Shown: positions 9,941 through 32,315 of the stretch, one piece after another
How the letters are laid out: every line of letters begins with the position of its first letter
Numbering within the stretch: the stretch's first letter is position 1
NCBI GenBank assembly: GCA_016183425.1
Contig: JACPEP010000013.1
Coordinates: 1-47,764 of the forward strand
Source of the DNA: Chloroflexota bacterium
GTDB lineage: Bacteria > Chloroflexota > Dehalococcoidia > JACPEP01
Direction of reading: 5' to 3'
Length of the DNA: 47,764 nt
Made by a program: the position numbers and the translations under genes
Notes under the pieces: generated by a model
Seen by the model: only the letters and a program-made list of their open reading frames with translations
Database searches by the model: none
Told to the model about the DNA's origin: nothing

Positions 9941-10459
9941 ATGACACCCATCTTGAAGGTCACCATGGGGTTGGGGGGTGGTATCTTTCTTTTGGTGGCT
10001 GCCTTGCTTATCGTGCCCCGACTTCAGCCAGCCCAGATTGTGTCCACGGGCCCGGGGGTGAAGGTGGCTTTCGATGCCGCTCTGGCCGGGCAGGGAAAAC
10101 AGTTGTTTGCCAACCGCTATGCCTGTTCCGTGTGTCACCAGGTTAGCTCCGCAGGGGTGAGTGGGGCCTCTGTGGGGCCAGACCTATCCCGGGTGCTTTT
10201 AGCCCAGGTGCCTCAAGGTACTCGTCCCGAGTTAAACCCTTTGGAGAAGTGGATGAAAGAAAAGGGCCTGGCCCGCCCCGAAGACGATCCGGAGAAGGCG
10301 GCGGGTTTGGTGACTCAGTATTTAGCGAATCCTCCCGACTACTCGTCGACCATGAAAGGACAGGTACTCCGGTTTAAGGACACGGCGGGGGGAGACGATG
10401 CGTGGCTCAAGGACGTGAAGGCCATCGTCGAGCTTCTTAAGCAGGCGGCGACGAAATGA
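9941..10459 (+). CDS. Membrane-anchored monohaem class I cytochrome c of the nitrate reductase operon
   Basis: The 172-residue protein starts with an uncleaved-looking membrane anchor (residues about 7-25), so its haem domain would face outside the membrane. It has one CxxCH haem-binding motif (Cys62, Cys65, His66 in YACSVCHQ) and a plausible distal ligand Met138 (YSSTMKGQ), the pattern of class I cytochromes c. A good ribosome site (GAAAGGAAG) precedes ATG 9941. It lies 42 bases before narG, so it is probably the first gene of the nar operon, comparable in position to the dihaem NarC of Thermus thermophilus, though with a single haem. Its role could be to receive or supply electrons for the nitrate reductase complex or its maturation; which one is not evident from sequence. 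Confidence 0.88.
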   Translation: MTPILKVTMGLGGGIFLLVAALLIVPRLQPAQIVSTGPGVKVAFDAALAGQGKQLFANRYACSVCHQVSSAGVSGASVGPDLSRVLLAQVPQGTRPELNPLEKWMKEKGLARPEDDPEKAAGLVTQYLANPPDYSSTMKGQVLRFKDTAGGDDAWLKDVKAIVELLKQAATK

Positions 10460-10501: not shown

Positions 10502-13500
10502 ATGGCTAGTTCAAAAGAGATTCAGCCCCGGGCGGGGGTACGCTGGTTTCAGATGGAGGCCACGCCGCGGGCCTGGGAAGAGTTTTACCGTCGTCGATGG
10601 CAGCATGACAAGATGGTACGCACCAGCCACGGGGTGAACTGCTCCGGGTCGTGTAGCTGGATGGTATACGTGAAAGACGGCATTGTCGGCTGGGAGCTTC
10701 AAGCCACCGATTGGCCCCAAATCAACTCCGATACCCCTAACTATGAACCCAGGGGCTGTCAACGGGGAATTAGTAGCTCCTGGTATGTGTATAGCCCCGT
10801 CCGCCCTAAGTATCCTTACGTTCGGGGGGTGCTTTTGGACTTCTATCGGGAGGCGAAAGCCAGGGGCCTGGATCCGGTGGAGGCCTGGGCCAACATTGTG
10901 GAAGATCCGGAGAAGGCCCGTAAATACAAAAATGCCCGGGGCAAGGGGGGGTGGCGTCGGGTAACCTGGGACGAGGTCACGGAGCTGGTTAGCGGGGCGT
11001 TGATTCATACCATAAAAAAGTACGGGCCCGACAGGGTGGCGGGCTTCTCCCCCATCCCTGCCATGAGCATGGTGAGCTGGTGCTCAGGGGCGCGCCTGAC
11101 CAATCTCCTGGGCGGCAGCCTCTTGAGCTTCTACGAGTGGTATCACGATAATCCCCATGTTCAGCCTAAGGCATTCGGGGAGCAGACGGACGTCCATGAG
11201 AGCGCCGATTGGTATCAGAGCACCTACTGGATTAACATGGGCACCAACCTCCCCATGACCAGAACTGCCGATGCCCATTACGCCTCGGAGTTTAAGTACA
11301 AAGGTGGCAAGCTGGTCGTCTTTTCACCGAACCATAGCGACGTGGTGAAGTTCGCCGATACCTGGGTCCAGTTGCGTCCTGGCACCGACGCCGCCATTCT
11401 GGCGGCCATGAACCACGTGGTGGTCAAAGAGTTCTTCGTAGACCGCCAGGTGGAGTATTTCCAGGACTACGTCAAGCGGTTCACTAGTCTCCCCTTCCTT
11501 CTCACCCTGAAAAAGCGGGGGGAGCACTACGTGCCCGGCCGTCTGCTGAGGGCTTCCGATGTGGCTGATTACCATGGGCAGGAAAACGCCCAGTGGAAGC
11601 TCCTGGTGTGGGACAGCGCCAGCGGCCGGATAAGACTTCCCAAAGGCACTATGGGCTTTCGCTGGGAGAAGGAGCCGACGGGCAACTGGAACCTTCAGAT
11701 GGAGGATGCGGTTACCGGAGAGGCTCTTGACCCCGCCCTTAGCCTGCTGGATGGGAACCATCAGGAGGTGCCGGTGGCCTTCGCCGACTTTACCGGCACT
11801 TTCAACGTCACGCCCGGCCAGAGTCAGCCCGATGCCAAGCCCAAGATGGTCACCCGGGGTGTGCCCGTCCAGGTGGTAAAGACGACGGACGGCGCGGAGG
11901 TACTGGTCACCACGGAGTTCGACCTCCTGGCCGCCCAACTGGGCGTTCCCAGGGGCCTGGGCGGCGATTACCCCACGGACTACGACGATCCCAAAACCTA
12001 TACTCCGGCGTGGCAGGAGCAGGAAACGGGCGTCAGCCGGGAGGTGGCCATCCAGATCGCCCGGGAGTGGGCCCTGAATGCTGAAAAGACAAAAGGAAAG
12101 TCCCTCATCATCGCCGGCCCGGGCTGCACCCACTGGTATCACAGCGACCTCTATCAGCGCTTCGGAGTCCTGCTGGGCGCTTTGACCGGGTGTCACGGTG
12201 TCAACGGCGGCGGCTGGTGCCATTATGTGGGCACCGAGAAGGCGAGGAACGTGGCCGCCGTGGTCAATACCATCGGCACTGCCCGGGACTGGAATCGGCC
12301 TCCCAGGTTGATGAACAGCACCTCCTACTGGTACTTCCATACCGACCAGTGGCGGTATGACCCGGAGAGCCTGGATCCTTTCCTGGTGCCCTGGGCGGAA
12401 AAGATGCGCCGCTACAACCACGCCGCCGATATGAACGCCTTGGCCGTGCGGCTGGGCTGGCTTCCCTGGTATCCCACTTTGGACAAGAAGAGCAGCCTGG
12501 AGGTGGTTCGGGATGCGGAGGCGGCGGGTGCCCAGACCGAGGGCGAGATCGTGGATTATGTAGCGCACCAGATGAAAGAGGGCAAGCTACGCTTCGCCAT
12601 CGAGGATGTGGACGCTAAAGAGAACTCTCCCAAGTGTCTCTTCGTATGGCGAGGCAACCTCATAGGCACCAGCATGAGGGGACATATGGCCGCCCTCAAG
12701 CACCTCCTGGGAACCCACCACAACGTGCTGGCAGAGCCGACGCTGGCCAAAGGGAAGGTTCATGAGGTGGAGTGGCGGGAGGAGGCTCCTGAGGGCAAGC
12801 TGGACCTTCTGTGCACCATGGAGTTCCGGATGATCTCCAGCGCCAACTACGCCGACGTGGTGCTTCCCGCTGCCCACTGGTATGAGAAGAACGATATTAC
12901 CGTCACCGACCTGCACACCTTCATCCATCCTTTCCAGGCGGCCATCGACCCGCCCTGGGAGACCAAGCCCGACTGGGAGGGCTTCAAGGCCATTGCCAAG
13001 AAGTTCTCTGAGCTGGCTAAGAAGCATTTCCCAGAGCCGGTGAAGGACCTGGTGATCACACCTTTGATTACTGATACCCCGGATGAGATGGCGCAGCCCA
13101 TGGGCGAGCTCAAGGATTGGAAGCGGGGTGAGGTGGAGGCCGTGCCGGGGAAGACCATGCCCCGTATGCAGGTGATAACTAGAGACTATACCAAAGTCTA
13201 CGATATGTACTGTAGCCTGGGCCCCTTGGCGGCCACCAGTTTCGGCGCCAAGGGCGTCGTCTATGATATCACCCCTCTCTACGAGGAGTTGAAAAAGAGC
13301 CACGTGGTGGGAACCTTTAATGGGGGTCACCCGTCTTTGGAAATGGACAAGCAAGTTGCCGAGGTCATTCTGGCCATTTCTCCCGAGACCAATGGGGAAT
13401 CCAGCTATCTGGGCTTCAAGTCGTTGGAGAAGAAGGTGGGCAGAAACCTGACCCATGTCATCGAGGGGCACCGGGAGCTCAGTTACAATTACGATGCGCT

Positions 13501-14236
13501 CTGTTCCCAGCCCCGGAGGGTCCATACTTCACCCCACTGGTTTGGCATCGATGAGCCTGGCCGTACCTACTCGCCCTGGAGTCTTAATATCGAAACCCTC
13601 CTCCCCTTCCGTACCCTTACCGGCAGGATAGATAACTACCTGGATCACGAGGTCTACCGGGAGTTGGGTGAGGCCCTGCCCATTTACAAACCTCCTATAG
13701 ATACTACCCTGACGGGGCTTTTGGATCCCAAAGGCCTGGAGCCCAACAGCAAGGTTTTCCGGTTCCTTACCCCCCACGGCAAGTGGACCATCCATAGCAC
13801 CTTCTGGGACAACCTGTGGATGCAGAGGCTATTTCGGGGTGGCCAGGTGGTCTGGATCAATCCCCAGGATGCCGGCGAGATAGGTGTCCAAGACAACGAC
13901 TGGCTGGAGGCCTACAGCCAGATGGGCATCATTGTGGCTCGGGCCGCCGTCAGCCATCAAGTGCCCCGGGGTTCGGCCATCATGTACCACATGTCAGAGC
14001 GAAATCTGAACATCCCCTTTTCCAAGCTTGCCCAGGAGAAAGGCGCCAGCGACTGGCGGGGGGGAAACAACAACGCTCCCACCCGTATTCAGATGAATCC
14101 TTCCTATATGGTGGGAGGCTATGCTCAGTGCACCTATTACATTAACTATTGGGGACCCAGTCCGGCGGAGAGGGACATGGTGATAGCCATTCGTAAGATG
14201 CCCTTGGAAAAGGGTGAAAAAGTCAGGTATCAGTAG
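10502..14236 (+). CDS. narG: Respiratory nitrate reductase alpha subunit (molybdenum catalytic subunit)
   Basis: The 1244-residue protein matches the cytoplasm-facing E. coli NarG nearly end to end (E. coli is 1247 residues). The [4Fe-4S] FS0 ligands are His43, Cys47, Cys51 and Cys86 (HGVNCSGSCSW and PRGCQRG), each exactly six positions before its E. coli counterpart, and Asp216 in YHDNP corresponds to the molybdenum ligand Asp222. Other conserved stretches are GPDRVAGFSPIPAMSMVS and GEQTDVxESADWY. There is no twin-arginine leader, so the active site should face the cytoplasm. It reduces nitrate to nitrite with electrons from NarH; the same protein clade includes nitrite oxidoreductases of Nitrobacter and Nitrolancea, so direction is not absolutely fixed by homology. 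narH follows after 11 bases. Confidence 0.97.
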   Translation: MASSKEIQPRAGVRWFQMEATPRAWEEFYRRRWQHDKMVRTSHGVNCSGSCSWMVYVKDGIVGWELQATDWPQINSDTPNYEPRGCQRGISSSWYVYSPVRPKYPYVRGVLLDFYREAKARGLDPVEAWANIVEDPEKARKYKNARGKGGWRRVTWDEVTELVSGALIHTIKKYGPDRVAGFSPIPAMSMVSWCSGARLTNLLGGSLLSFYEWYHDNPHVQPKAFGEQTDVHESADWYQSTYWINMGTNLPMTRTADAHYASEFKYKGGKLVVFSPNHSDVVKFADTWVQLRPGTDAAILAAMNHVVVKEFFVDRQVEYFQDYVKRFTSLPFLLTLKKRGEHYVPGRLLRASDVADYHGQENAQWKLLVWDSASGRIRLPKGTMGFRWEKEPTGNWNLQMEDAVTGEALDPALSLLDGNHQEVPVAFADFTGTFNVTPGQSQPDAKPKMVTRGVPVQVVKTTDGAEVLVTTEFDLLAAQLGVPRGLGGDYPTDYDDPKTYTPAWQEQETGVSREVAIQIAREWALNAEKTKGKSLIIAGPGCTHWYHSDLYQRFGVLLGALTGCHGVNGGGWCHYVGTEKARNVAAVVNTIGTARDWNRPPRLMNSTSYWYFHTDQWRYDPESLDPFLVPWAEKMRRYNHAADMNALAVRLGWLPWYPTLDKKSSLEVVRDAEAAGAQTEGEIVDYVAHQMKEGKLRFAIEDVDAKENSPKCLFVWRGNLIGTSMRGHMAALKHLLGTHHNVLAEPTLAKGKVHEVEWREEAPEGKLDLLCTMEFRMISSANYADVVLPAAHWYEKNDITVTDLHTFIHPFQAAIDPPWETKPDWEGFKAIAKKFSELAKKHFPEPVKDLVITPLITDTPDEMAQPMGELKDWKRGEVEAVPGKTMPRMQVITRDYTKVYDMYCSLGPLAATSFGAKGVVYDITPLYEELKKSHVVGTFNGGHPSLEMDKQVAEVILAISPETNGESSYLGFKSLEKKVGRNLTHVIEGHRELSYNYDALCSQPRRVHTSPHWFGIDEPGRTYSPWSLNIETLLPFRTLTGRIDNYLDHEVYRELGEALPIYKPPIDTTLTGLLDPKGLEPNSKVFRFLTPHGKWTIHSTFWDNLWMQRLFRGGQVVWINPQDAGEIGVQDNDWLEAYSQMGIIVARAAVSHQVPRGSAIMYHMSERNLNIPFSKLAQEKGASDWRGGNNNAPTRIQMNPSYMVGGYAQCTYYINYWGPSPAERDMVIAIRKMPLEKGEKVRYQ

Positions 14237-14247
14237 GGAGAGAAGCA

Positions 14248-15753
14248 ATGAAAGTAATGGCACAGATGGCGATGTGCTTCAACCTGGACAAATGTCTAGG
14301 TTGCCACACGTGCAGCGTCGCCTGCAAGAATGTCTGGACCAATCGGGAAGGCGCCGAATACATGTGGTGGAACAATGTGGAGACCAAGCCCGGCATCGGT
14401 TATCCCCGAGAGTGGGAGAACCAGCAAAAGTACCAGGGGGGCTTCGTGGCGCGGAACGGCAAGCCCCAGCTCCGGTCGGGGCGTCGGTTGTGGGAGCTGC
14501 TGAATATCTTCTACAATCCCAACATGCCCACCATGTCCGAATACTATGGCCCCCACCCCTTTACCTTCACCTACGAGGACCTGCACACTGACAAGCCGCA
14601 AAGCCAGCAGCCCATCGGTCGGCCCAAGTCCCTGGTTACTGGAGAGGAGAACATACCCATAACGTGGGCGGCTAACTGGGAAGACAATGCCGCGGGCACC
14701 TACCGAACGGGCCAGCAGGACGTGAACTTCGCCGGGATCACCCAGGCTGAGAAGGATGCTCTGCTGAGCTACGACAGGGTGTTCTACTTCTACCTGCCCC
14801 GCATCTGCAATCACTGTTTGAACCCGGCCTGCGTGGCTGCCTGCCCCAGTGGTGCTGCCTACAAGAGGGAAGAGGACGGGGTTGTTCTCATCGACCAGGA
14901 GAGGTGCCGGGGATGGCGTTTCTGTGTCTCTTCCTGCCCTTACAAGAAGCCTTACTACAACTGGCGCACCGGCAAAATGGAGAAGTGCATCCTGTGCTAC
15001 CCCCGGATAGAGGCGGGCATGCCTCCCGCCTGTTTTCACGCTTGTGTGGGCCGGATCCGATTCATGGGGGTTCTCCTCTATGACCAGGATCGGGTGGTGG
15101 AGACAGCTACTGCCCCCGACGCCGATTTGGTTCGGGCCTATCGGGAGCTTATCCTTGACCCCTTCGATCCGGCCATCATAGAGGCCGCCCGCGCCGCCGG
15201 CATTCGGGAGGACTGGCTGGATGCGGCGCGCCGCTCCCCTACCTACTTTATGTTTAAGAAGTGGCAGATTTCCATGCCCCTGCACCCGGAGTTCCGAACC
15301 CTTCCCAGTCTCTTCTATGTGCCCCCGGAAAGCCCGATGATAACTCTACTGGACAATAAAGGACTGTGGAAGTCCTCTGGCGAATGGTTGCCCAAGCTGG
15401 GAGATTTTCGGGTGCCCTTGAGGTATCTGGCCAATCTGTTGGCGGCGGGCAACGAGGGGGAGGTCAGCAAGGCGCTGAGCCGTCTGCTGGCCATGCGGCA
15501 ATACAAGCGCAGTCTGGAGGTGGATGGTAAGGCCGATGTGGATGTGCTGGCCCAGGTGGGGCTGTCTCAGGAAGAGGCCCAGGCTATGTTTCGTCTGCTG
15601 GCCCTAGCTTTCAACAACGAGAGGTTCGTCGTCCCCACCAGCGTCAATGAGGCGGCGGTGGAGCCTTATATCGAAAGAGGCTTCGCCGGGTTCCCCAACA
15701 TGAGGCGGCGAAAGGTGTTTCATCGTGAGCCGCAAAGGACGTATCCCTACTAA
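14248..15753 (+). CDS. narH: Respiratory nitrate reductase beta subunit (four Fe-S clusters)
   Basis: The 501-residue subunit passes electrons from NarI to NarG. Four cysteine groups are visible: CFNLDKCLGCHTCSVAC, CNHCLNPACVAACP, CRGWRFCVSSCP and CILCYPRIEAGMPPAC followed by FHAC. The Trp in CRGWRFC replaces a cysteine, the hallmark of the [3Fe-4S] cluster FS4 in NarH. Length agrees with E. coli NarH (512). ATG 14248 follows a GGGAGAG ribosome site. Its TAA stop overlaps the narJ start (TAATG), so the two are translationally coupled. It has no membrane span and should sit on the cytoplasmic side with NarG. Confidence 0.97.
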   Translation: MKVMAQMAMCFNLDKCLGCHTCSVACKNVWTNREGAEYMWWNNVETKPGIGYPREWENQQKYQGGFVARNGKPQLRSGRRLWELLNIFYNPNMPTMSEYYGPHPFTFTYEDLHTDKPQSQQPIGRPKSLVTGEENIPITWAANWEDNAAGTYRTGQQDVNFAGITQAEKDALLSYDRVFYFYLPRICNHCLNPACVAACPSGAAYKREEDGVVLIDQERCRGWRFCVSSCPYKKPYYNWRTGKMEKCILCYPRIEAGMPPACFHACVGRIRFMGVLLYDQDRVVETATAPDADLVRAYRELILDPFDPAIIEAARAAGIREDWLDAARRSPTYFMFKKWQISMPLHPEFRTLPSLFYVPPESPMITLLDNKGLWKSSGEWLPKLGDFRVPLRYLANLLAAGNEGEVSKALSRLLAMRQYKRSLEVDGKADVDVLAQVGLSQEEAQAMFRLLALAFNNERFVVPTSVNEAAVEPYIERGFAGFPNMRRRKVFHREPQRTYPY

Positions 15754-16343
15754 TGTCTGAAGAACTGGCCCAAGCCTACAAGTTGATCGCCGACCTTCTC
15801 TCCTATCCGGAGGAGATGGATGTGAAAGGGCTTCAGACCACCAGCCAGGAGGTAGCCGACGGTCTGAAGCCGCAAGACCCGGAGGCGGCGGACCTCATCC
15901 GCTCTTTTGCCCGAGATCTGGGTTCCGTTACTGCGGAGTACTATGTAGAGGTCTTTGAGCTAGCGCCCCAATGCTCTCTCTATTTAGGTAGTTACGGCCT
16001 CCCAGAGCCGGAGACCTGCTCTTCTCTGGGGACATCAGAGAGGAACCAGCTCTTTATGGAAATGGCGAACATATACCGGCACTACGGTTTGTCCCTAGGG
16101 GGTAAAGAGCTTCCTGACTTTTTGCCCGCCGTGGTAGAGTTCCTCTGGCTCACCGAGGATAGGGAGGATGGGGAACCTCGGGGCACCCTCATCGCGGAGT
16201 TCGTGCTGCCTTACTTGCCCAAGATGCGGCGAGGTCTGGAAGAAATCGGAAGCCCTTATGCCAAGCTGTTGCGGGCCCTGGAGGCTTTGCTCAAGCTTGA
16301 AGTTAGTGCTAGACAGGAGAGCCATGCCAAACCTGTGGGATGA
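15753..16343 (+). CDS. narJ: Nitrate reductase assembly chaperone NarJ
   Basis: The 196-residue, acidic, helical protein occupies the invariant position between narH and narI and has the TorD/NarJ family features: an N-terminal LIADLLSYPEE segment and a central HYGLSLGGKELPDFLP stretch. NarJ binds apo-NarG and helps insert the molybdenum cofactor before membrane docking. Its start overlaps the narH stop by one base and its 3' end overlaps the narI start by 20 bases, so stoichiometric translation is likely. Confidence 0.92.
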   Translation: MSEELAQAYKLIADLLSYPEEMDVKGLQTTSQEVADGLKPQDPEAADLIRSFARDLGSVTAEYYVEVFELAPQCSLYLGSYGLPEPETCSSLGTSERNQLFMEMANIYRHYGLSLGGKELPDFLPAVVEFLWLTEDREDGEPRGTLIAEFVLPYLPKMRRGLEEIGSPYAKLLRALEALLKLEVSARQESHAKPVG

Positions 16344-16986
16344 AATCCTTTTCGGTATCCTCCCCTACGTTGCCGCTGCCCTCTTCTTTGGCGGGGCTAT
16401 ATATCGGGGTGTGGTCAGACCTCTGGAGTGGAGCACCCGGGCCAGTGGCTTCTTTGAGAGGCCGTCCATGGGCATCGCTTCCCTGGCCCTTCATTGGGGG
16501 ATAATCGTCCTCTTCGTCGCCCATCTTTTCGGTTGGGTGGGCGGCTTGATGGGCTCCATGACCATGAGCCAGATTTTCTACTGGATGGGGGTGGTGGCGG
16601 GAGCTTCCGTCCTATACGGGGTATTGGCGGCGCTCATAAGGAGAATAATGGTGCCCGAGATGCGGGCCATGAGCATGGCTGAGGACTATATCCTCCTCAC
16701 CTTCCTGTTGGTTATTGTGATTCTTGCCCTGTATCAGGTGCTGGTGGGGCAGCTCTTCGGCCTGGCGCTGACGGTGGCTCCCTGGCTGTCCAGCGTTTTC
16801 CAGCTTTCCCCGGATGTGAAGCTGATGAGCGGGCTTACCCTTATCATCAAGGCCCACATCACCCTATCCCTGCTTTTCATTGCCTACTGGCCCTATACCA
16901 AGATGGTACACGTGTTGGCCTTGCCGTGGCGCTACTTCTATCGTCCCTACCTAACGGTGCGGCTGTATCGAAGGATGGTGCGGTAA
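16324..16986 (+). CDS. narI: Respiratory nitrate reductase gamma subunit (dihaem cytochrome b)
   Basis: The true start is ATG 16324, giving 220 residues (MPNLWDEILFG), behind an AGGAGA ribosome site inside the 3' end of narJ; longer in-frame extensions are just the narJ overlap. Five hydrophobic spans are visible. The four haem b ligands are all present: His57 and His67 (ALHWGIIVLFVAH) and His178 and His196 (KAHITLS and MVHVLA), with the 18-residue spacing of the second pair equal to that of E. coli His187/His205. It oxidises quinol in the membrane and delivers electrons to NarH. Confidence 0.95.
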   Translation: MPNLWDEILFGILPYVAAALFFGGAIYRGVVRPLEWSTRASGFFERPSMGIASLALHWGIIVLFVAHLFGWVGGLMGSMTMSQIFYWMGVVAGASVLYGVLAALIRRIMVPEMRAMSMAEDYILLTFLLVIVILALYQVLVGQLFGLALTVAPWLSSVFQLSPDVKLMSGLTLIIKAHITLSLLFIAYWPYTKMVHVLALPWRYFYRPYLTVRLYRRMVR

Positions 16987-17103: not shown

Positions 17104-18654
17104 ATGACTAATCTGAGCGCGCAATACAGGGCTGTAGCTTTGAGTACGCTCGCTTTTACGATTTGTTTCGCCGCCTGGATGATAAACGGGGTGCTCGTGG
17201 CCTTCCTGGTGGACAAGGGGGTATATGCCTGGAATGTCGACCAGGTGGGATGGCTCATTGGCATTCCAGTTCTTACGGGCGCGGTTCTGCGCCTTCCGAT
17301 AGGTGTATTGACCGACAAATACGGCGGTCGAATCGTCTTCACGGTGTTGATGCTGCTATCGGCAGTGCCAATGTACCTGGTCAGCTACGCCAATACATAC
17401 TATGATTTCATGCTCACGGGGCTGGGCTTCGGGCTGAGCGGTGCCTCCTTCGCGGTGGGGGTAGCCTATGTTTCCCTATGGTTTCGGAGGGATCAGCAGG
17501 GCACTGTCCTGGGGCTTTTTGGCCTGGGCAATGCGGGGGCAGCTCTCACCAGTATTGGAGCGCCTATAGTGCTAGCGATGGTTACGGATCAAGGAGCCAA
17601 TCTAGATGGTTGGCGAGCTTTGCCCAAGCTGTACGCCGTCGCGCTAGTGGTTACTGCTGTCATATTCTTCCTTCTTGCGCCCACCAAGATGGTGGAACAG
17701 AGCCAGAAACGAACCTTCGTGGAACGTCTGGCCCCGCTCAGGAACGTTCGCGTTTGGCGGTTCGGTTTCTACTACTTTTTCGCTTTTGGCAGTTTTGTTG
17801 GCCTGTCCATGTGGCTCATCGCCTATTACGTCAATGTGTACTCCATGAGTGTGACTACGGCAGGCATGATCGCCGCCTTCTTCAGCCTCCCTGCGGGTTT
17901 GGTACGAGCGGTGGGGGGGTGGCTCTCGGACAGAACGGGGGCTCGGGTTCTCATGTACTTCGTGCTGGGCACAAGCCTAGTTTGTATGGTTCTCCTTTTT
18001 GTGCCCCGTATGGAGGTTTCTGTGGCGGGTGAAGGCGTGACGGCAAAACGTCCGGGTACGGTAACTGCGGTTTCCACAGGCGAAACAGTCATCGGTCAAG
18101 ATGTGTACAAACTGCGCCAGGTGGAGAATATCAGAGGTCTCCACAACGATAGAGGCGAACTCCTGCTCGTTTTCCCTATCGTTTCATCCTTGCAGGAACC
18201 AATGGTTAGGGTCGGCGACGAGGTGGCAAAGGGGCAGCTCATAGCTCGCGGTGTGACCCATGTGTACTTTCAGGCGAATGTGTGGATATTTACCGGGTTG
18301 GTCTTTATCGTTGGCATGTTGTTGGGGGTAGGCACGGCGGCCATTTTCAAGCATGTGGCAGACTACTTCCCGACAAACGTGGGTCTGGTTGGGGGGTTGG
18401 TTGGAGTTCTGGGCGCTCTGGGAGGGTTCTTCAGCCCCATCATTTTCGGCTATCTGCTGAGGCTTACCGGAATATGGACCGTTACCTGGATGTTTCTCGC
18501 CTTTGTCGCTCTGGCTTGTTTGGTCTGGATGCACCTGGTCGTCCGAAGTGTGGAGCGCAACAAGACGACTGCCCCCTTCCGTCGCATTGAAGAGGCTGTA
18601 ACGAAGGATTCATTCGCGAATGAGCCGGTGATGGACTACAGACACGCCGACTGA
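17104..18654 (+). CDS. narK: NarK-type nitrate/nitrite transporter with a large periplasmic insert
   Basis: The 516-residue major facilitator protein has the nitrate/nitrite porter signatures: GLFGLGNAGA in span 5, VGGLVGVLGALGGFF in span 11, and the substrate-binding arginines in span 2 (VLRLPIG) and span 8 (GLVRAVGGWLSDR). It is about 50 residues longer than E. coli NarK (463). The excess is a soluble insert at about residues 303-385 between spans 9 and 10, predicted outside the membrane, ending in VRVGDEVAKGQLIARG, which resembles a barrel-sandwich (biotinyl/lipoyl-like) hairpin without a lipoylation lysine context. A ribosome site GAGAGGTGG precedes ATG 17104. It follows narI after 117 bases with no obvious promoter and probably exchanges nitrate for nitrite or imports nitrate with protons. 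Confidence 0.93.
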   Translation: MTNLSAQYRAVALSTLAFTICFAAWMINGVLVAFLVDKGVYAWNVDQVGWLIGIPVLTGAVLRLPIGVLTDKYGGRIVFTVLMLLSAVPMYLVSYANTYYDFMLTGLGFGLSGASFAVGVAYVSLWFRRDQQGTVLGLFGLGNAGAALTSIGAPIVLAMVTDQGANLDGWRALPKLYAVALVVTAVIFFLLAPTKMVEQSQKRTFVERLAPLRNVRVWRFGFYYFFAFGSFVGLSMWLIAYYVNVYSMSVTTAGMIAAFFSLPAGLVRAVGGWLSDRTGARVLMYFVLGTSLVCMVLLFVPRMEVSVAGEGVTAKRPGTVTAVSTGETVIGQDVYKLRQVENIRGLHNDRGELLLVFPIVSSLQEPMVRVGDEVAKGQLIARGVTHVYFQANVWIFTGLVFIVGMLLGVGTAAIFKHVADYFPTNVGLVGGLVGVLGALGGFFSPIIFGYLLRLTGIWTVTWMFLAFVALACLVWMHLVVRSVERNKTTAPFRRIEEAVTKDSFANEPVMDYRHAD

Positions 18655-18664
18655 GGAACTCGGT

Positions 18665-19783
18665 ATGAATTTGCACCTACTTCACACCCTGGGGACCTTA
18701 CCTTTTAGAACCGTGAGTTACCTCCCTGCGGTCTTGAGGGCTGAGGTCAGAGACCTATCCCCGTCCTATTTTGCACTGGTTATGGCGAGTGGGATTGTTT
18801 CCATCTCAGCCAATTTGTTAGGGATAGGGATTATTGATGTTGTTTTGTTCTGGTTGAATATTTTAGCCTACCCGACATTGTGGCTGTTGACCATTCTACG
18901 TTTTGCCTGGTACACGAGGGAATTCATCGGCGACATGACTGACCATCAGCGTGGCCCAGGTTTCTTCACGGAAGTGGCCGGCACGTGCGTTCTCGGAAGC
19001 CAGTTCATAATAATTTTCGGAAATTACCTGATGGCAACCCTCTTGTGGGTTCTGGGAATCTTTCTTTGGGTATCCTTGACTTACATCATTTTCACCAGCT
19101 TTGTCATCAAGGAGAACAAGCCTTCCCTTGCCGAAGGGATAACGGGGGGGTGGCTGCTTGCCGTCGTGGCCACACAGTCGATAGCAGTCCTTAGTGCACT
19201 TTTGGCCGCTCACTGGCAACAACCTTACCGACTCGAGGCAAACTTTTTGGCTCTGTCCATGTGGCTGTGGGGGGGCATGCTCTATATCTGGATGATTTCA
19301 CTCATCTTCTATCGCTATACCTTTTTCAAGTTTTTCCCCGGCGACCTTGCACCGCCTTATTGGATCAATATGGGTGCTATGGCTATCTCCACCCTCGCTG
19401 GAGCTGCGTTAATAGTGAACACCCCGGATGCCCCATTTCTGCGATCGCTGCTCCCTTTTCTCAAAGGCTTCACTGTTTTCTACTGGGCAACTGGCACGTG
19501 GTGGATCCCAATGCTGGGCATTTTAGCCATCTGGAGGCATCTTTACAAACGCTTTCCTCTGGCTTATGACCCCTTGTACTGGGGGGCAGTCTTTCCTCTG
19601 GGGATGTATACTGCTGCCACATTCCAAATGGCCCGAGCAATGGAGCTGGAATTCTTGGACGTTGTTCCGCGCTATTTCGTGTATGTGGCCCTGACGGTGT
19701 GGCTGATCACTTTTGCGGGGATGGTTCGCTCCTTGGTCAAAGGTCTAATCCAGGCGCAGCGCCGCCATCTCTTGTCCCCATGA
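18665..19783 (+). CDS. TehA/SLAC1-family (TDT) anion channel or transporter
   Basis: The 372-residue protein has about ten hydrophobic spans and the TDT-family opening LSPSYFALVMASGIVSI. The family contains TehA, the malate transporter Mae1, SsuE-type sulfite exporters and the plant nitrate/chloride channel SLAC1. It sits 10 bases after narK and overlaps the next transporter's reading frame region, so it belongs to the nitrate operon. That context favours a role in nitrate, nitrite or another small anion rather than tellurite resistance, but the sequence does not fix the substrate. ATG 18665 follows GAGGAA. Confidence 0.85.
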   Translation: MNLHLLHTLGTLPFRTVSYLPAVLRAEVRDLSPSYFALVMASGIVSISANLLGIGIIDVVLFWLNILAYPTLWLLTILRFAWYTREFIGDMTDHQRGPGFFTEVAGTCVLGSQFIIIFGNYLMATLLWVLGIFLWVSLTYIIFTSFVIKENKPSLAEGITGGWLLAVVATQSIAVLSALLAAHWQQPYRLEANFLALSMWLWGGMLYIWMISLIFYRYTFFKFFPGDLAPPYWINMGAMAISTLAGAALIVNTPDAPFLRSLLPFLKGFTVFYWATGTWWIPMLGILAIWRHLYKRFPLAYDPLYWGAVFPLGMYTAATFQMARAMELEFLDVVPRYFVYVALTVWLITFAGMVRSLVKGLIQAQRRHLLSP

Positions 19784-19797
19784 TAAGGGAAAAGAAT

Positions 19798-20853
19798 ATG
19801 GGGCGAAGATTCCACAATTATGCGCCCCTGGTAGAAACCATTGGCGACGCCAGTTCCGCCGCCGAAGCCAAGTGCCAGCTTAACGTCGGTCAAGGCATTG
19901 CTTTGGGAGTGGTAGCCGCAGCCTATCTGGCTCTCGCCACCACGTTGTCCTTGGCGGTGGGGGCTACTATTCAATCGCCCAGCGTCCAGAAGTTGCTCAT
20001 GGGGGCCGTATTCCCTGTGGGCCTCATCGCTGTGGTGGTGGCCGTCTCAGAGTTGTCCACGGGGAACTATCTGGTAACGCCTCTGGGGGCCATGACAGGC
20101 TGCATCCACTGGAAACACGTCCTTTATAACTGGGCCGTCAGCTACGTGGGAAATTTCCTGGGCGCCTTCCTGCTGGCGGTAGTTATAATCGACGGTGCCC
20201 ACGTACTTACGGGGGCTATGTGGGGTCAGCCATGGGTGGATTTGCTGACAAAGATGGTGACCCTCAAAGCGAGCCTTTCTCCCACTGAGGCTTTCTGGAG
20301 GGGCTTTCTTTGCATATGGTTGGTAGACCTGGCGGTATGGCAGGCCTATCGGGTTAAGGACTATACGGCACGATTCCTTCTTATATGGTTTCCTACCTTC
20401 ACCTTCTTTACCTTGAGTCTGGAGCACAGTGTAGTCAATATGTTTCTCTTTCCCGCCGCCATCTTCGCCGGCGCCGACATTTCGTGGCGGGCGTTTCTGT
20501 TGAACAACCTGACACCTGTTGTCCTGGGAAATGTAGTGGGGGGCCTGTTTGTGGTGGGCATGCTCTACTGGTTTTCGGCTGGTCTTCCTGTGGTAAGCTT
20601 GTCATTAGGAAATGGGAACCCCACTGGCTCCGGTGTCCATCACGTCCAGGGTTCTTATGGCCTTTTGGGAGCGAATCTATTCAAGGGGTTAACGGTGATC
20701 GCCGTCTTCTTTGCCCTTTTTCCGGGGGGCGCCGCTTTGGTGTCCCTGGTGATGCCACAGGGTCTGGGGGTTCTGGTACCTACTGCCGTCATACTTTACC
20801 TTGCAGTTGTAACTTACCTTGTTTCCCTTTCTGGGAGGAGGGGAGAGGGGTAG
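19798..20853 (+). CDS. Formate/nitrite-type channel (FocA/NirC family) with an extra C-terminal membrane segment
   Basis: The FNT core is clear: SELSTGNYLVTPLGAMTG and NWAVSYVGNFLGAF in the first half, and LEHSVVNMFLFPAAI (with the pore histidine of FNT channels) and NLTPVVLGNVVGGLF in the second. From ATG 19798 the product is 351 residues, longer than the 270-290 typical of the family; the surplus is a C-terminal stretch of about 85 residues with two further hydrophobic spans. ATG 19780 overlaps the upstream stop (ATGA) but lacks a ribosome site, whereas 19798 has AAGGGA nearby, so 19798 is preferred. In a nitrate cluster nitrite export or import is the most likely role. It converges on uvrA. 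Confidence 0.87.
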   Translation: MGRRFHNYAPLVETIGDASSAAEAKCQLNVGQGIALGVVAAAYLALATTLSLAVGATIQSPSVQKLLMGAVFPVGLIAVVVAVSELSTGNYLVTPLGAMTGCIHWKHVLYNWAVSYVGNFLGAFLLAVVIIDGAHVLTGAMWGQPWVDLLTKMVTLKASLSPTEAFWRGFLCIWLVDLAVWQAYRVKDYTARFLLIWFPTFTFFTLSLEHSVVNMFLFPAAIFAGADISWRAFLLNNLTPVVLGNVVGGLFVVGMLYWFSAGLPVVSLSLGNGNPTGSGVHHVQGSYGLLGANLFKGLTVIAVFFALFPGGAALVSLVMPQGLGVLVPTAVILYLAVVTYLVSLSGRRGEG

Positions 20854-28772: not shown

Positions 28773-30233
28773 TTACACCGCCGATACCAAGTACCCGGTG
28801 GGAACCCACTTGCCCCACTCCGCTTTGAAGTCGACCTTCTTCTTGTTGTAGCCGAAGATGTCCTTGGTCTGGAAGCCGGAGAACCAGGGAGCGTCATCCT
28901 TAATGATGCCCAGAGCCTTGGCATAGGTCTTCTTCCTCTCCTCCTGGTTCAATGTGCTGCGCCCTTTGTCCAGGAGATCATCCACCTCCTTGTTGGAGTA
29001 GTAGAACCAGTTCCGGGGGCTGGTGGAGTAGAGGTTCTGGTAGGTGGTCACGTCGGCGTCCCAGATAATGGAGCCGCGGGAGAAGTACCACAGTCCACGG
29101 GGTCCAGTCTTGGCGGCGAACTCCTTGTTGGCGAAGTCCTCTGTTACCAGGTGGGGCACCATCTTGGTCTTTATGCCCACCTGGGCCAGGTAGCCGGCCA
29201 CCGCCTCGGAAAACTCCTTTTCTCGGGGCACGTACCCGCCTCCGGTTACGAAGTCAAAGATGATCTCGAAGCCGTCGGGATAGCCAGCCGCAGCGAGAAG
29301 CTCCCTGGCCTTCTTGGGATCGTAAGGGTAAGGCTGCAGGGTAGCGTCGTTACCGAAGTAAGCCGGTTGAAGGGCGCTGGGTGCCAGGTTAGCGTAGCCT
29401 CCCAGGAGTTTATCTATCATCTCCTTGGTGTTTACGGCGTAGCTGATGGCCTGTCTGACCCGCTTATCCTGGACGGGGCTGCTCTTGTCAAAGAGGCTGA
29501 TGGCGATCCAGACGCCGCTGGTGCCCACGTTGGCGGAGACCCCCATGTCCGGCATGCCTTCCAGGGACTTGGCCTCATCCGGGCTGATGCCGAAGGCGAT
29601 GTCCGCCGCGCCCGTCTTGAGTGCCGCCACTCGAGAGTTGGACTGGGGGATAAGGGAGAAGGTCATCTTCTTCACCTTGGCCTTGCCTCCCCAGTAGTCG
29701 TCAAAGCGCTCGACTACTAAGCGTTCGTCCACCACATGCTCTATAAACTTAAAGGGCCCGGCCCCCACCGGCTTGGTGAGCATGATGGCGTTGCCATTGT
29801 CTTTGATATACTTCATGGGCACGATGCGGGACTGGATGAGCTTGTTGGGCAGGATGGGGTCGGGTGCTTTGGTCACCATGCGCGCCGTGTAGGGGTCGAC
29901 GATTTCAACCTTGATATCCGCATAGTCGGTGATATAACGGGGCTTGAAATTCACATCCTGCTGCCGTTCGATGTTGAACTTCACCACCTCGGCGTTGAAC
30001 TCCTCGCCGTTGTGGAACTTGACCCCTTTGCGTAGCTTGAATTCCCAAGTAGTGTCGTTAACCGCCCGGAAGCTCTCGGCTAACTGGGGGGAGACGGCGG
30101 GGTCTATGTTGGTCTTGCGCCAGGTGAGGCCATCGTAGATGTGGGGGAAGATGATGGCGGTGGCAAGCTGGGAGTCCAGGTGGGTATCCAGGTTTAGGAT
30201 GCCGCTGGGGATGGCATAGTTGAGGGTTGCCAA
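28773..30233 (-). CDS. ABC transporter family 5 solute-binding protein, copy 1, with broken 5' end
   Basis: The open frame covers the whole mature binding domain of a DppA/OppA-type (SBP_bac_5) periplasmic protein: ESFRAVNDTTWEFKLRKGVK near the start, then VRQAISYAVNTKEMID and the C-terminal lobe. The frame has no good start; TTG 30233 is the only initiation-type codon and lies inside a Pro/Ala-rich linker that continues open upstream to a TGA. A separate short frame with a proper ribosome site (ATG 30327) encodes the beginning of the leader but is out of frame and stops at 30298. The gene is therefore a pseudogene, an assembly artefact, or frameshift-dependent. It is about nine-tenths identical to the copy at 30876-32315 apart from the C-terminus. 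No permease or ATPase genes are in the window. Confidence 0.85.
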   Translation of the reverse strand: MATLNYAIPSGILNLDTHLDSQLATAIIFPHIYDGLTWRKTNIDPAVSPQLAESFRAVNDTTWEFKLRKGVKFHNGEEFNAEVVKFNIERQQDVNFKPRYITDYADIKVEIVDPYTARMVTKAPDPILPNKLIQSRIVPMKYIKDNGNAIMLTKPVGAGPFKFIEHVVDERLVVERFDDYWGGKAKVKKMTFSLIPQSNSRVAALKTGAADIAFGISPDEAKSLEGMPDMGVSANVGTSGVWIAISLFDKSSPVQDKRVRQAISYAVNTKEMIDKLLGGYANLAPSALQPAYFGNDATLQPYPYDPKKARELLAAAGYPDGFEIIFDFVTGGGYVPREKEFSEAVAGYLAQVGIKTKMVPHLVTEDFANKEFAAKTGPRGLWYFSRGSIIWDADVTTYQNLYSTSPRNWFYYSNKEVDDLLDKGRSTLNQEERKKTYAKALGIIKDDAPWFSGFQTKDIFGYNKKKVDFKAEWGKWVPTGYLVSAV

Positions 30234-30875: not shown

Positions 30876-32315
30876 TCAATACTTAAGGCGGGTGCCCCAT
30901 TCCGCTTTGAAGTTTAGCTTCTTCTTGTTGTAGCCATAGATGTCCTTCATCTGGAAGCCGGCGAACCAGATGGCGTCGTCCTTGATGATGCTCAGGGCCT
31001 TGCCGTAGGCTTTCTTTCTCTCCTCCTGGTCGAGGATGGTATGCCCTTTGAGGAGGAGGTCATCTACCTCCTTATTGGAGTAGTAGAACCAGTTCCGAGT
31101 GCTGGTGGAGTAGAGGTTCTGGTATATGGTGACGTCGCCGTCCCAAACAATGGAACCCCGGGAGAAGTACCACAGGCCGCGGGGCCCGGTTTTGGCGGCG
31201 AACTCCTTGTTGGCGAAGTCTTCCGAAGACAAATGGGAGACAACCTTGCACTTTATCCCTACCTGGGCCAGGTAGCCGACCACTGCCTCTTGGAACTCCT
31301 TCTCTCGGGGTACCCAGCCGCCTCCGGTGACGAAATCGAAGATGATCTCGAAACCGTCGGGGAAGCCCGCTGCGGTGAGAAGCTCCTTGGCCTTTTTGGG
31401 GTCGAAGGGGTAGGGCTGTAGAGCGGGGTCGCTGCCGAAATAGGCTGGTTGGAGGGCGCTAGGTGCCATAGTAGCGTAACCGCCCAGGAGTGTGTCCAGC
31501 ATCTCCTTCTGGTTTACGGCGTAGCTGATGGCCTGCCTCACCCGCTTGTCTTGGACGGGGCTGCTCTTGTCAAAGAGGTTAACTGCGATCCAGACGCCGC
31601 TGGTTCCCAGACCGGCGCTCACCCCCATGTCGGGCATTCCTTCCAATGACTTAGCGTCATCTGGGCTGATGCCGAAGGCGATGTCGGCGGCGCCTGACTT
31701 CAAGGCTGCTACCCGATTAGAGGCGATGGGTATGAGAGAAAAGGTCACCTTCTTTACGTTGGTCTTGCCCCCCCAGTAGTCGTCAAAGCGCTCGATGGTT
31801 AGATGGTCGTCTACGACATACTCCGTCAGTTTGAAGGGTCCGGTTCCCATGGGCTTTTGAAGCATGATGGCGTTGCCATTGTCTTTGATATACTTCATGG
31901 GCACGATGCGGGACTGGACGAGCTTGTTGGGCAGGATAGGGTCCGGTGCTTTGGTCACCATGCGCGCCGTGTAAGGGTCAACGACTTCAACCTTGATATC
32001 CGCATAGTCGCTGATGTAGCGGGGCTTGAAATTCACGTCTTGCTGCCGTTCGATGTTGAATTTTACCACCTCGGCGTTGAACTCCTCGCCGTTGTGGAAC
32101 TTGACCCCTTTGCGCAGCTTGAATTCCCAAGTAGTGTCGTTAACCGCCCGGAAGCTCTCGGCCAACTGGGGGGAGACGTTAGGGTCCACGTTGGTCTGGC
32201 GCCACGTGAGGCCATTGTAGATGTGGGGGAAGATGATGGCGGTGGCCAGACTAGAATCCAGGTGGGTATCCAGGTTTAGGATGCCGCTGGGGATGGCATA
32301 GTTGAGGGTTGCCAA
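30876..32315 (-). CDS. ABC transporter family 5 solute-binding protein, copy 2, with broken 5' end
   Basis: This is the paralogue of the binding protein at 28773-30233: the same DppA/OppA-like two-lobed domain, most positions identical, but a different C-terminus (AEWGTRLKY instead of AEWGKWVPTGYLVSAV). As in copy 1 the frame upstream of TTG 32315 is a Pro/Ala/Thr linker (TKAPGAAATPTKPAAS) typical of the region after a lipoprotein cysteine, with no start codon. The signal peptide lies in another frame beginning at ATG 32475. It probably binds peptides or similar amphipathic ligands if it is exported at all. It sits just behind the complex I genes on the same strand but has its own promoter. 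Confidence 0.85.
   Translation of the reverse strand: MATLNYAIPSGILNLDTHLDSSLATAIIFPHIYNGLTWRQTNVDPNVSPQLAESFRAVNDTTWEFKLRKGVKFHNGEEFNAEVVKFNIERQQDVNFKPRYISDYADIKVEVVDPYTARMVTKAPDPILPNKLVQSRIVPMKYIKDNGNAIMLQKPMGTGPFKLTEYVVDDHLTIERFDDYWGGKTNVKKVTFSLIPIASNRVAALKSGAADIAFGISPDDAKSLEGMPDMGVSAGLGTSGVWIAVNLFDKSSPVQDKRVRQAISYAVNQKEMLDTLLGGYATMAPSALQPAYFGSDPALQPYPFDPKKAKELLTAAGFPDGFEIIFDFVTGGGWVPREKEFQEAVVGYLAQVGIKCKVVSHLSSEDFANKEFAAKTGPRGLWYFSRGSIVWDGDVTIYQNLYSTSTRNWFYYSNKEVDDLLLKGHTILDQEERKKAYGKALSIIKDDAIWFAGFQMKDIYGYNKKKLNFKAEWGTRLKY

Follow-up and report, generated by a model that had tools for sequence, protein, structure and literature searches.

The nar locus

The window (the whole stretch of 47,764 nucleotides of Chloroflexota DNA that was analysed) carries a nitrate reductase operon in the order monohaem cytochrome c - narGHJI - narK - SLAC1 channel - FNT channel. 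The narK gene encodes a transporter interrupted by a soluble domain; genes and protein segments are listed in Table 1. The usual order in other phyla is multihaem cytochrome c - narGHJI - inserted narK - narK2, and the cytochrome encoded before narG, which has a single CxxCH motif in the window, usually has two there.

Table 1. Genes of the nar locus and segments of the narK product (positions in the window unless a locus is named)
Feature	Position	Strand	Basis
Monohaem c-type cytochrome, N-terminal anchor, upstream of narG	9941..10459	+	one CxxCH, 172 aa
narG	10502..14236	+	TIGR01580, 1469.6 bits
narH	14248..15753	+	TIGR01660, 668.2 bits
narJ	15753..16343	+	TIGR00684, 61.2 bits
narI-like	16324..16986	+	TIGR00351, 101.7 bits (cut-off 105.55)
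narK1-type nitrate transporter with inserted domain, 516 aa	17104..18654	+	Pfam, TIGR00886, PDB alignment, Foldseek
TM1-TM9, residues 1-297	17104..17994	+	AlphaFold2 helices
RpoB-like barrel-sandwich domain, residues 301-391, extracytoplasmic	18004..18276	+	alignment, profiles, AlphaFold2, Foldseek
Variable low-confidence loop of the domain, residues 341-357	18124..18174	+	pLDDT block means 53 and 67; length-variable in alignment
Junction motif FQANVWIF into TM10, residues 389-396	18268..18291	+	conservation across 84 sequences
TM10-TM12 and C-terminal tail, residues 393-516	18280..18651	+	AlphaFold2
SLAC1/TehA-family anion channel, in the usual narK2 place	18665..19783	+	PF03595, 3.3e-52
Formate/nitrite channel (FNT family)	19789..20853	+	PF01226, 2e-67; TIGR00790
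Loci with SLAC1 gene next to inserted narK	window 18665-19783; L032, L036, L048, L053, L058, L059, L060, L066, L077, L100

Assignment of the narK product

The protein matches Pfam MFS_1 (1.5e-43), and its best family match is the NarK model TIGR00886 (E 3.4e-51). The score on this model, 174.4 bits, lies below the curated cut-off of 311.7 bits, the match being interrupted at the insert; for comparison, a tandem NarK2 scores 340.1 bits. The predicted structure has the MFS fold, and its best structural match in a Foldseek search was E. coli NarK (4u4v, E 3.2e-15). Residues R63, Y224 and R268 align with R89, Y263 and R305 of E. coli NarK, whose substrate roles have been described (PMC4432589). 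The substrate-binding arginines of TM2 and TM8 and the tyrosine of TM7 are all present in the window protein, and they are invariant in all 84 sequences compared (see below). Sequence identity is 43-46% to NarK1 halves and 26-28% to NarK2 halves or proteins. In the tree the window protein groups with NarK1, not with NarK2, next to the NarK1 halves of fusion proteins from Paracoccus and Ciceribacter. It is on the tree, the fold and the binding-site residues, and not on TIGR00886, that the protein is classified as a predicted NarK1-type nitrate transporter. The known members of this type are nitrate/proton symporters. The inserted NarK has the same 12-TM MFS fold as NasA and the NarK1 half of Paracoccus denitrificans and, as with NarK1-type symporters, narK2 often follows downstream; unlike these proteins, it alone has an extra domain of about 90 residues between TM9 and TM10.

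A soluble domain between TM9 and TM10

Matches to the NarK profile and to PDB sequences break off at residues 298-303 and restart near residues 392-425, from which it follows that residues ~301-391 are extra. The two motif-A-like sequences, GVLTDKYGGR and GGWLSDRTGAR, belong to the TM2-TM3 and TM8-TM9 loops, which in MFS transporters face the cytoplasm; with this topology the TM9-TM10 loop is extracytoplasmic. AlphaFold2, run on the full protein with 84 aligned sequences, gave a confident model (pLDDT 90.8, pTM 0.84) of 12 helical spans and a six-stranded beta domain (strands 303-313, 318-323, 327-330, 333-336, 359-366 and 379-389) placed between TM9 and TM10, the latter starting at residue 393. 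Modelled alone, the domain had a pLDDT of 82.5. No span-like hydrophobic stretch was found in the insert, the highest 19-residue Kyte-Doolittle mean being 1.29, and this, together with the model, rules out both a membrane hairpin and disorder. The original prediction had described a NarK that is normal except for a soluble domain, free of hydrophobic spans, in the loop from TM9 to TM10 on the outer side of the membrane. Alignments and model agree with it on all these points and on the location; only its end at 18260 was set slightly short, as the domain extends as far as about 18270-18276.

Among the genomes of 84,980 species, a scan picked out at least 553 relatives. Those 80 that ranked highest by similarity to the inserted query, a choice that is silent on the frequency of uninserted relatives, were taken further, and all of them align across the insert save one that is cut by a contig end. 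Since the same insert is present in all 84 sequences compared, it is neither a chance feature nor a frameshift or other sequence artefact, nor is it an orphan.

The mean fraction of the commonest residue is 0.56 in the insert versus 0.71 in the membrane part, and 25 insert positions are conserved at 85% or more. These are mostly Gly, Pro and hydrophobic residues, together with the junctions: P301 on the TM9 side is invariant, and F389, Q390, A391, N392, W394 and F396 are each 96-100% conserved. The 84-sequence alignment of the insert contained no conserved Cys, no invariant Lys and no invariant acid. This pattern of conservation speaks against lipoylation, a bound cofactor or a metal site and favours a structural element that is held firmly by TM9 and TM10.

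Relationship of the domain to RpoB

A profile built from the 84 inserts was compared with 177,635 PDB sequences. The top 22 matches were all RpoB (best E 2.1e-4), and the first match of another kind was a lipoyl domain at E 0.037. The matched part of RpoB corresponds to residues ~713-787 of the E. coli beta subunit, N-terminal to the flap. Because the SBHM of RNA polymerase beta is placed at the flap, we speak of a barrel-sandwich segment and not of an SBHM. Among the NCBIfam RpoB models, NF001616 was matched by 66 and TIGR02013 by 48 of the 84 inserts (best 8.9e-7). Alignment with hhalign to the corresponding segments of 30 Chloroflexota RpoB proteins gave a probability of 97.8 and an E-value of 1.2e-12, with 33% identity over 64 columns. 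The score was 68.6, as compared with at most 24.4 (probability at most 25.7) for 200 column-shuffled RpoB profiles and 10.1 for the reversed profile. The RpoB profile matches extended over 64-81 columns, and a looser hhalign alignment covered columns 3-94, almost the entire domain with both ends reached. When 400 Chloroflexota genomes were searched with the insert profile, the window NarK was followed, among the matches listed, by nearly nothing but frames of RpoB size; 11 non-NarK loci were fetched, and a simple motif check found RpoB motifs in seven and no match in the other four.

The predicted structure points in the same direction: all 50 listed Foldseek matches of the insert in the PDB were RNA polymerase beta subunits (probability 1.00, TM 0.51-0.55). 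The E-values were modest (7e-3 to 6e-2) because the domain is short, and with a TM-score of ~0.54 common descent with RpoB therefore rests mainly on the profile match. Taken together, the insert is very probably homologous to the barrel-sandwich segment of bacterial RpoB, with which it shares profile type and predicted fold. It differs from it in standing alone in a membrane transporter, outside any catalytic or DNA-binding context, and in having a variable loop in place of the RpoB stretch RSNQxTCINQ, except for the Gln before P-x-V. The insert is not itself an RNA polymerase beta subunit: with 13 bits against a full-length cut-off of 801 only the segment is present, without its catalytic context.

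The original prediction had named biotinyl/lipoyl domains, RND adaptors and RNA polymerase as examples of the expected barrel-sandwich fold and had called the insert lipoyl/biotinyl-like. The fold and RNA polymerase are borne out by the profiles and by the fold search; the label is misleading. The window insert passes no Pfam cut-off, its best Pfam matches being generic barrel-sandwich families, and it scores 15.8 on Biotin_lipoyl (gathering score 22.1) and 15.1 on Biotin_lipoyl_2 (29.8). No modifiable Lys at the hairpin turn is invariant in the alignment, the most frequent being K376 of the GDxVxK motif (76%), and an hhalign control with the biotinyl domain (probability 78.6) aligned 17 columns only, the GDxVxKGQ hairpin. 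A biotinyl/lipoyl domain was rejected on these grounds, and RnfC along with it. So was an RND/MFP adaptor, as the model lacks the alpha-hairpin that splits the lipoyl half-motifs and RND_mfp was matched by one insert of 84, at 0.046. It is very improbable that the insert is some generic barrel-sandwich domain (biotinyl/lipoyl, RnfC, M23 or RND adaptor) with a convergent likeness to RpoB: some inserts do match RnfC_N (40/84, best 6.5e-4), M23 (18/84) and Biotin_lipoyl (18/84) weakly, those of the window insert falling mostly on the shared VGDxVxKGQ hairpin, but the unbiased PDB rankings by sequence and by fold both put RpoB far ahead.

Distribution and origin of the insertion

The 80 loci, chosen as the best by similarity, span 14 named bacterial phyla and one archaeal MAG. 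Cultured carriers of an inserted NarK include Geothrix fermentans and Tamlana agarivorans. In the class of the window, 7 of 393 genomes (that of the window included) have a full-length inserted NarK, the relatives being 53-74% identical, and two (G023 and G105) carry uninserted NarK1-type proteins of 43% identity. In a quick tree calculated without the insert columns, the inserted NarKs form one clade (SH-aLRT 100) with one change of state. Its neighbours in the tree are NarK1 proteins without the insert, from the window's class and from Paracoccus, Ciceribacter and Moraxella; NarK2 is far off. Uninserted NarK1 proteins have 5-21 residues in the insert columns. Judged from the sequences, the insertion appears to have happened once, inside the NarK1 type, and to have been kept.

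Seven plasmid records contain homologues that match 80% or more of the query with roughly 31-36% identity; at the places inspected these were uninserted NarK1 proteins or NarK1-NarK2 fusions. Such fusions without the insert are present on plasmids of Ciceribacter (L194:2950-5715) and Paracoccus alcaliphilus (L192:2968-5685). A contig of a 'Euryarchaeota' MAG carries an inserted narK after narGHJI and narK2 (L076:9944-11677). This gene is closest to one from an Acidobacteria MAG, and either transfer or mis-binning could account for it.

Possible roles of the domain

We propose that a NarK1 importer acquired an RpoB-type segment in its extracytoplasmic TM9-TM10 loop by a single early insertion and has retained it since. 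The segment would act as part of the transporter itself, forming a rigid cap that P301 connects to TM9 and F389-Q-A-N-x-W to TM10, with no flexible linker on either side. The transport cycle of E. coli NarK involves bending of TM10 and TM11 (PMC4432589). Given the bending of TM10, such a cap would make the C-terminal bundle more stable or adjust the access or release of nitrate, rather than dock one particular partner. An intrinsic role of this kind is favoured by the invariant junction residues and by the retention of the insert in respiratory and assimilatory settings, with or without cytochromes. Against it speak the lower conservation of the insert relative to the membrane part, the fact that the bending in E. 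coli NarK takes place in the cytosolic halves of TM10 and TM11 whereas the domain sits at the outer end, and the observation that transport by mammalian PepT1 and PepT2 is hardly affected by the domain that they, too, carry between TM9 and TM10 (PMC4597091). For the reading as a whole, an RpoB-homologous domain inserted once, kept, and working as a rigid cap, we estimate a probability of roughly 0.5. The specific function, tuning or stabilisation of the importer by a rigid cap, is put forward tentatively, and the domain may gate transport, as envisaged in the original prediction, or tune it.

The main rival is that the domain gathers a partner at the outer face, for which the nar-operon cytochrome c, NarI, a neighbouring NarK2 or SLAC1 protein and the cell wall are candidates. 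It owes this standing to the PepT1/PepT2 domain, which is located at the same TM9-TM10 site, binds trypsin and has no obvious role in transport, transport not needing it (PMC4597091). Most loci are nar operons: a multihaem c-type cytochrome is encoded upstream of narG in 34 of 39 testable operons, and narK2 adjoins the inserted narK in 52 of 80 loci. No neighbour is constant, however. Of the 50 loci with at least 7 kb on each side, 17 lack a multihaem cytochrome and 16 lack narH, and in Tamlana agarivorans (L099:10001-17067) the inserted narK is followed by an assimilatory gene whose 1,172-aa product joins a NasC-type molybdenum reductase to a NirB-like part. The insert thus does not track one partner, and docking of cytochrome c, suggested in the original prediction, is not supported as a general function. 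The surface of the insert also shows no conserved charged area, the conserved residues being of the kinds described above. Taking these observations into account, we regard a docking module as rather unlikely.

It is still less probable that the domain is a tolerated passenger, persisting by descent with little function at a TM9-TM10 junction that accepts inserts. The single origin, the lower conservation of the insert and the tolerance of the same site in PepT1/PepT2 would fit such a history, but the insert was kept in 84 of 84 relatives over 14 named bacterial phyla, with 25 positions conserved at 85% or more. Repeated loss would be expected of a passenger, with the caveat that losses may be under-sampled among the best 80, since their ranking by similarity used an inserted query.

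Comparison with other inserted domains

Mammalian PepT1 and PepT2 are MFS nutrient symporters that likewise have a soluble, extracellular beta domain between TM9 and TM10 (PMC4597091). This consists of two immunoglobulin-like folds, of other fold and origin, and is an analogue of the NarK insert, not a homologue. NarK independently repeats the insertion site and therefore offers a bacterial, genetically tractable test of such inserts. Barrel-sandwich motifs are known as insertion modules in RNA polymerase, where SBHM insertions make up E. coli beta'i6/SI3 and cyanobacterial Si3 (PMC2939025, PMC10802570); those remain within RNA polymerase subunits, the NarK insert does not.

Targeted full-text searches of the open-access literature returned no paper that connects a barrel-sandwich domain, or one from RNA polymerase, with NarK, and a NarK1 transporter with an RpoB-type domain was not found described there. 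In this arrangement an unrelated membrane transporter makes extracytoplasmic use of a domain type that belongs to a universally conserved transcription enzyme, and many phyla with few cultured members have it fixed in their operons for nitrate respiration. The arrangement also sets apart a large NarK1 clade whose members family models see as plain MFS transporters. It is conceivable, at somewhat less than even odds, that a nitrate transporter gene captured a fragment of rpoB once and that this fragment, now on the outside of the cell, has become a conserved element of nitrate import in a large part of the bacteria, either as a regulatory cap or as a surface for docking.

Other genes in the neighbourhood

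A SLAC1/TehA gene adjoins the inserted narK in 11 of 80 loci and never together with narK2, a mutual exclusion with a hypergeometric value of 2e-6 that is not corrected for relatedness, the SLAC1 loci being mostly from Bacteroidota. The channel may provide a putative exit route for nitrite. Farther downstream, on the minus strand of the window, two tandem near-duplicate genes (28773-30233 and 30876-32315), which look like genes for putative solute-binding proteins, are ~85% identical in protein and DNA, and a neighbouring stretch of 106 bases is 98% identical.
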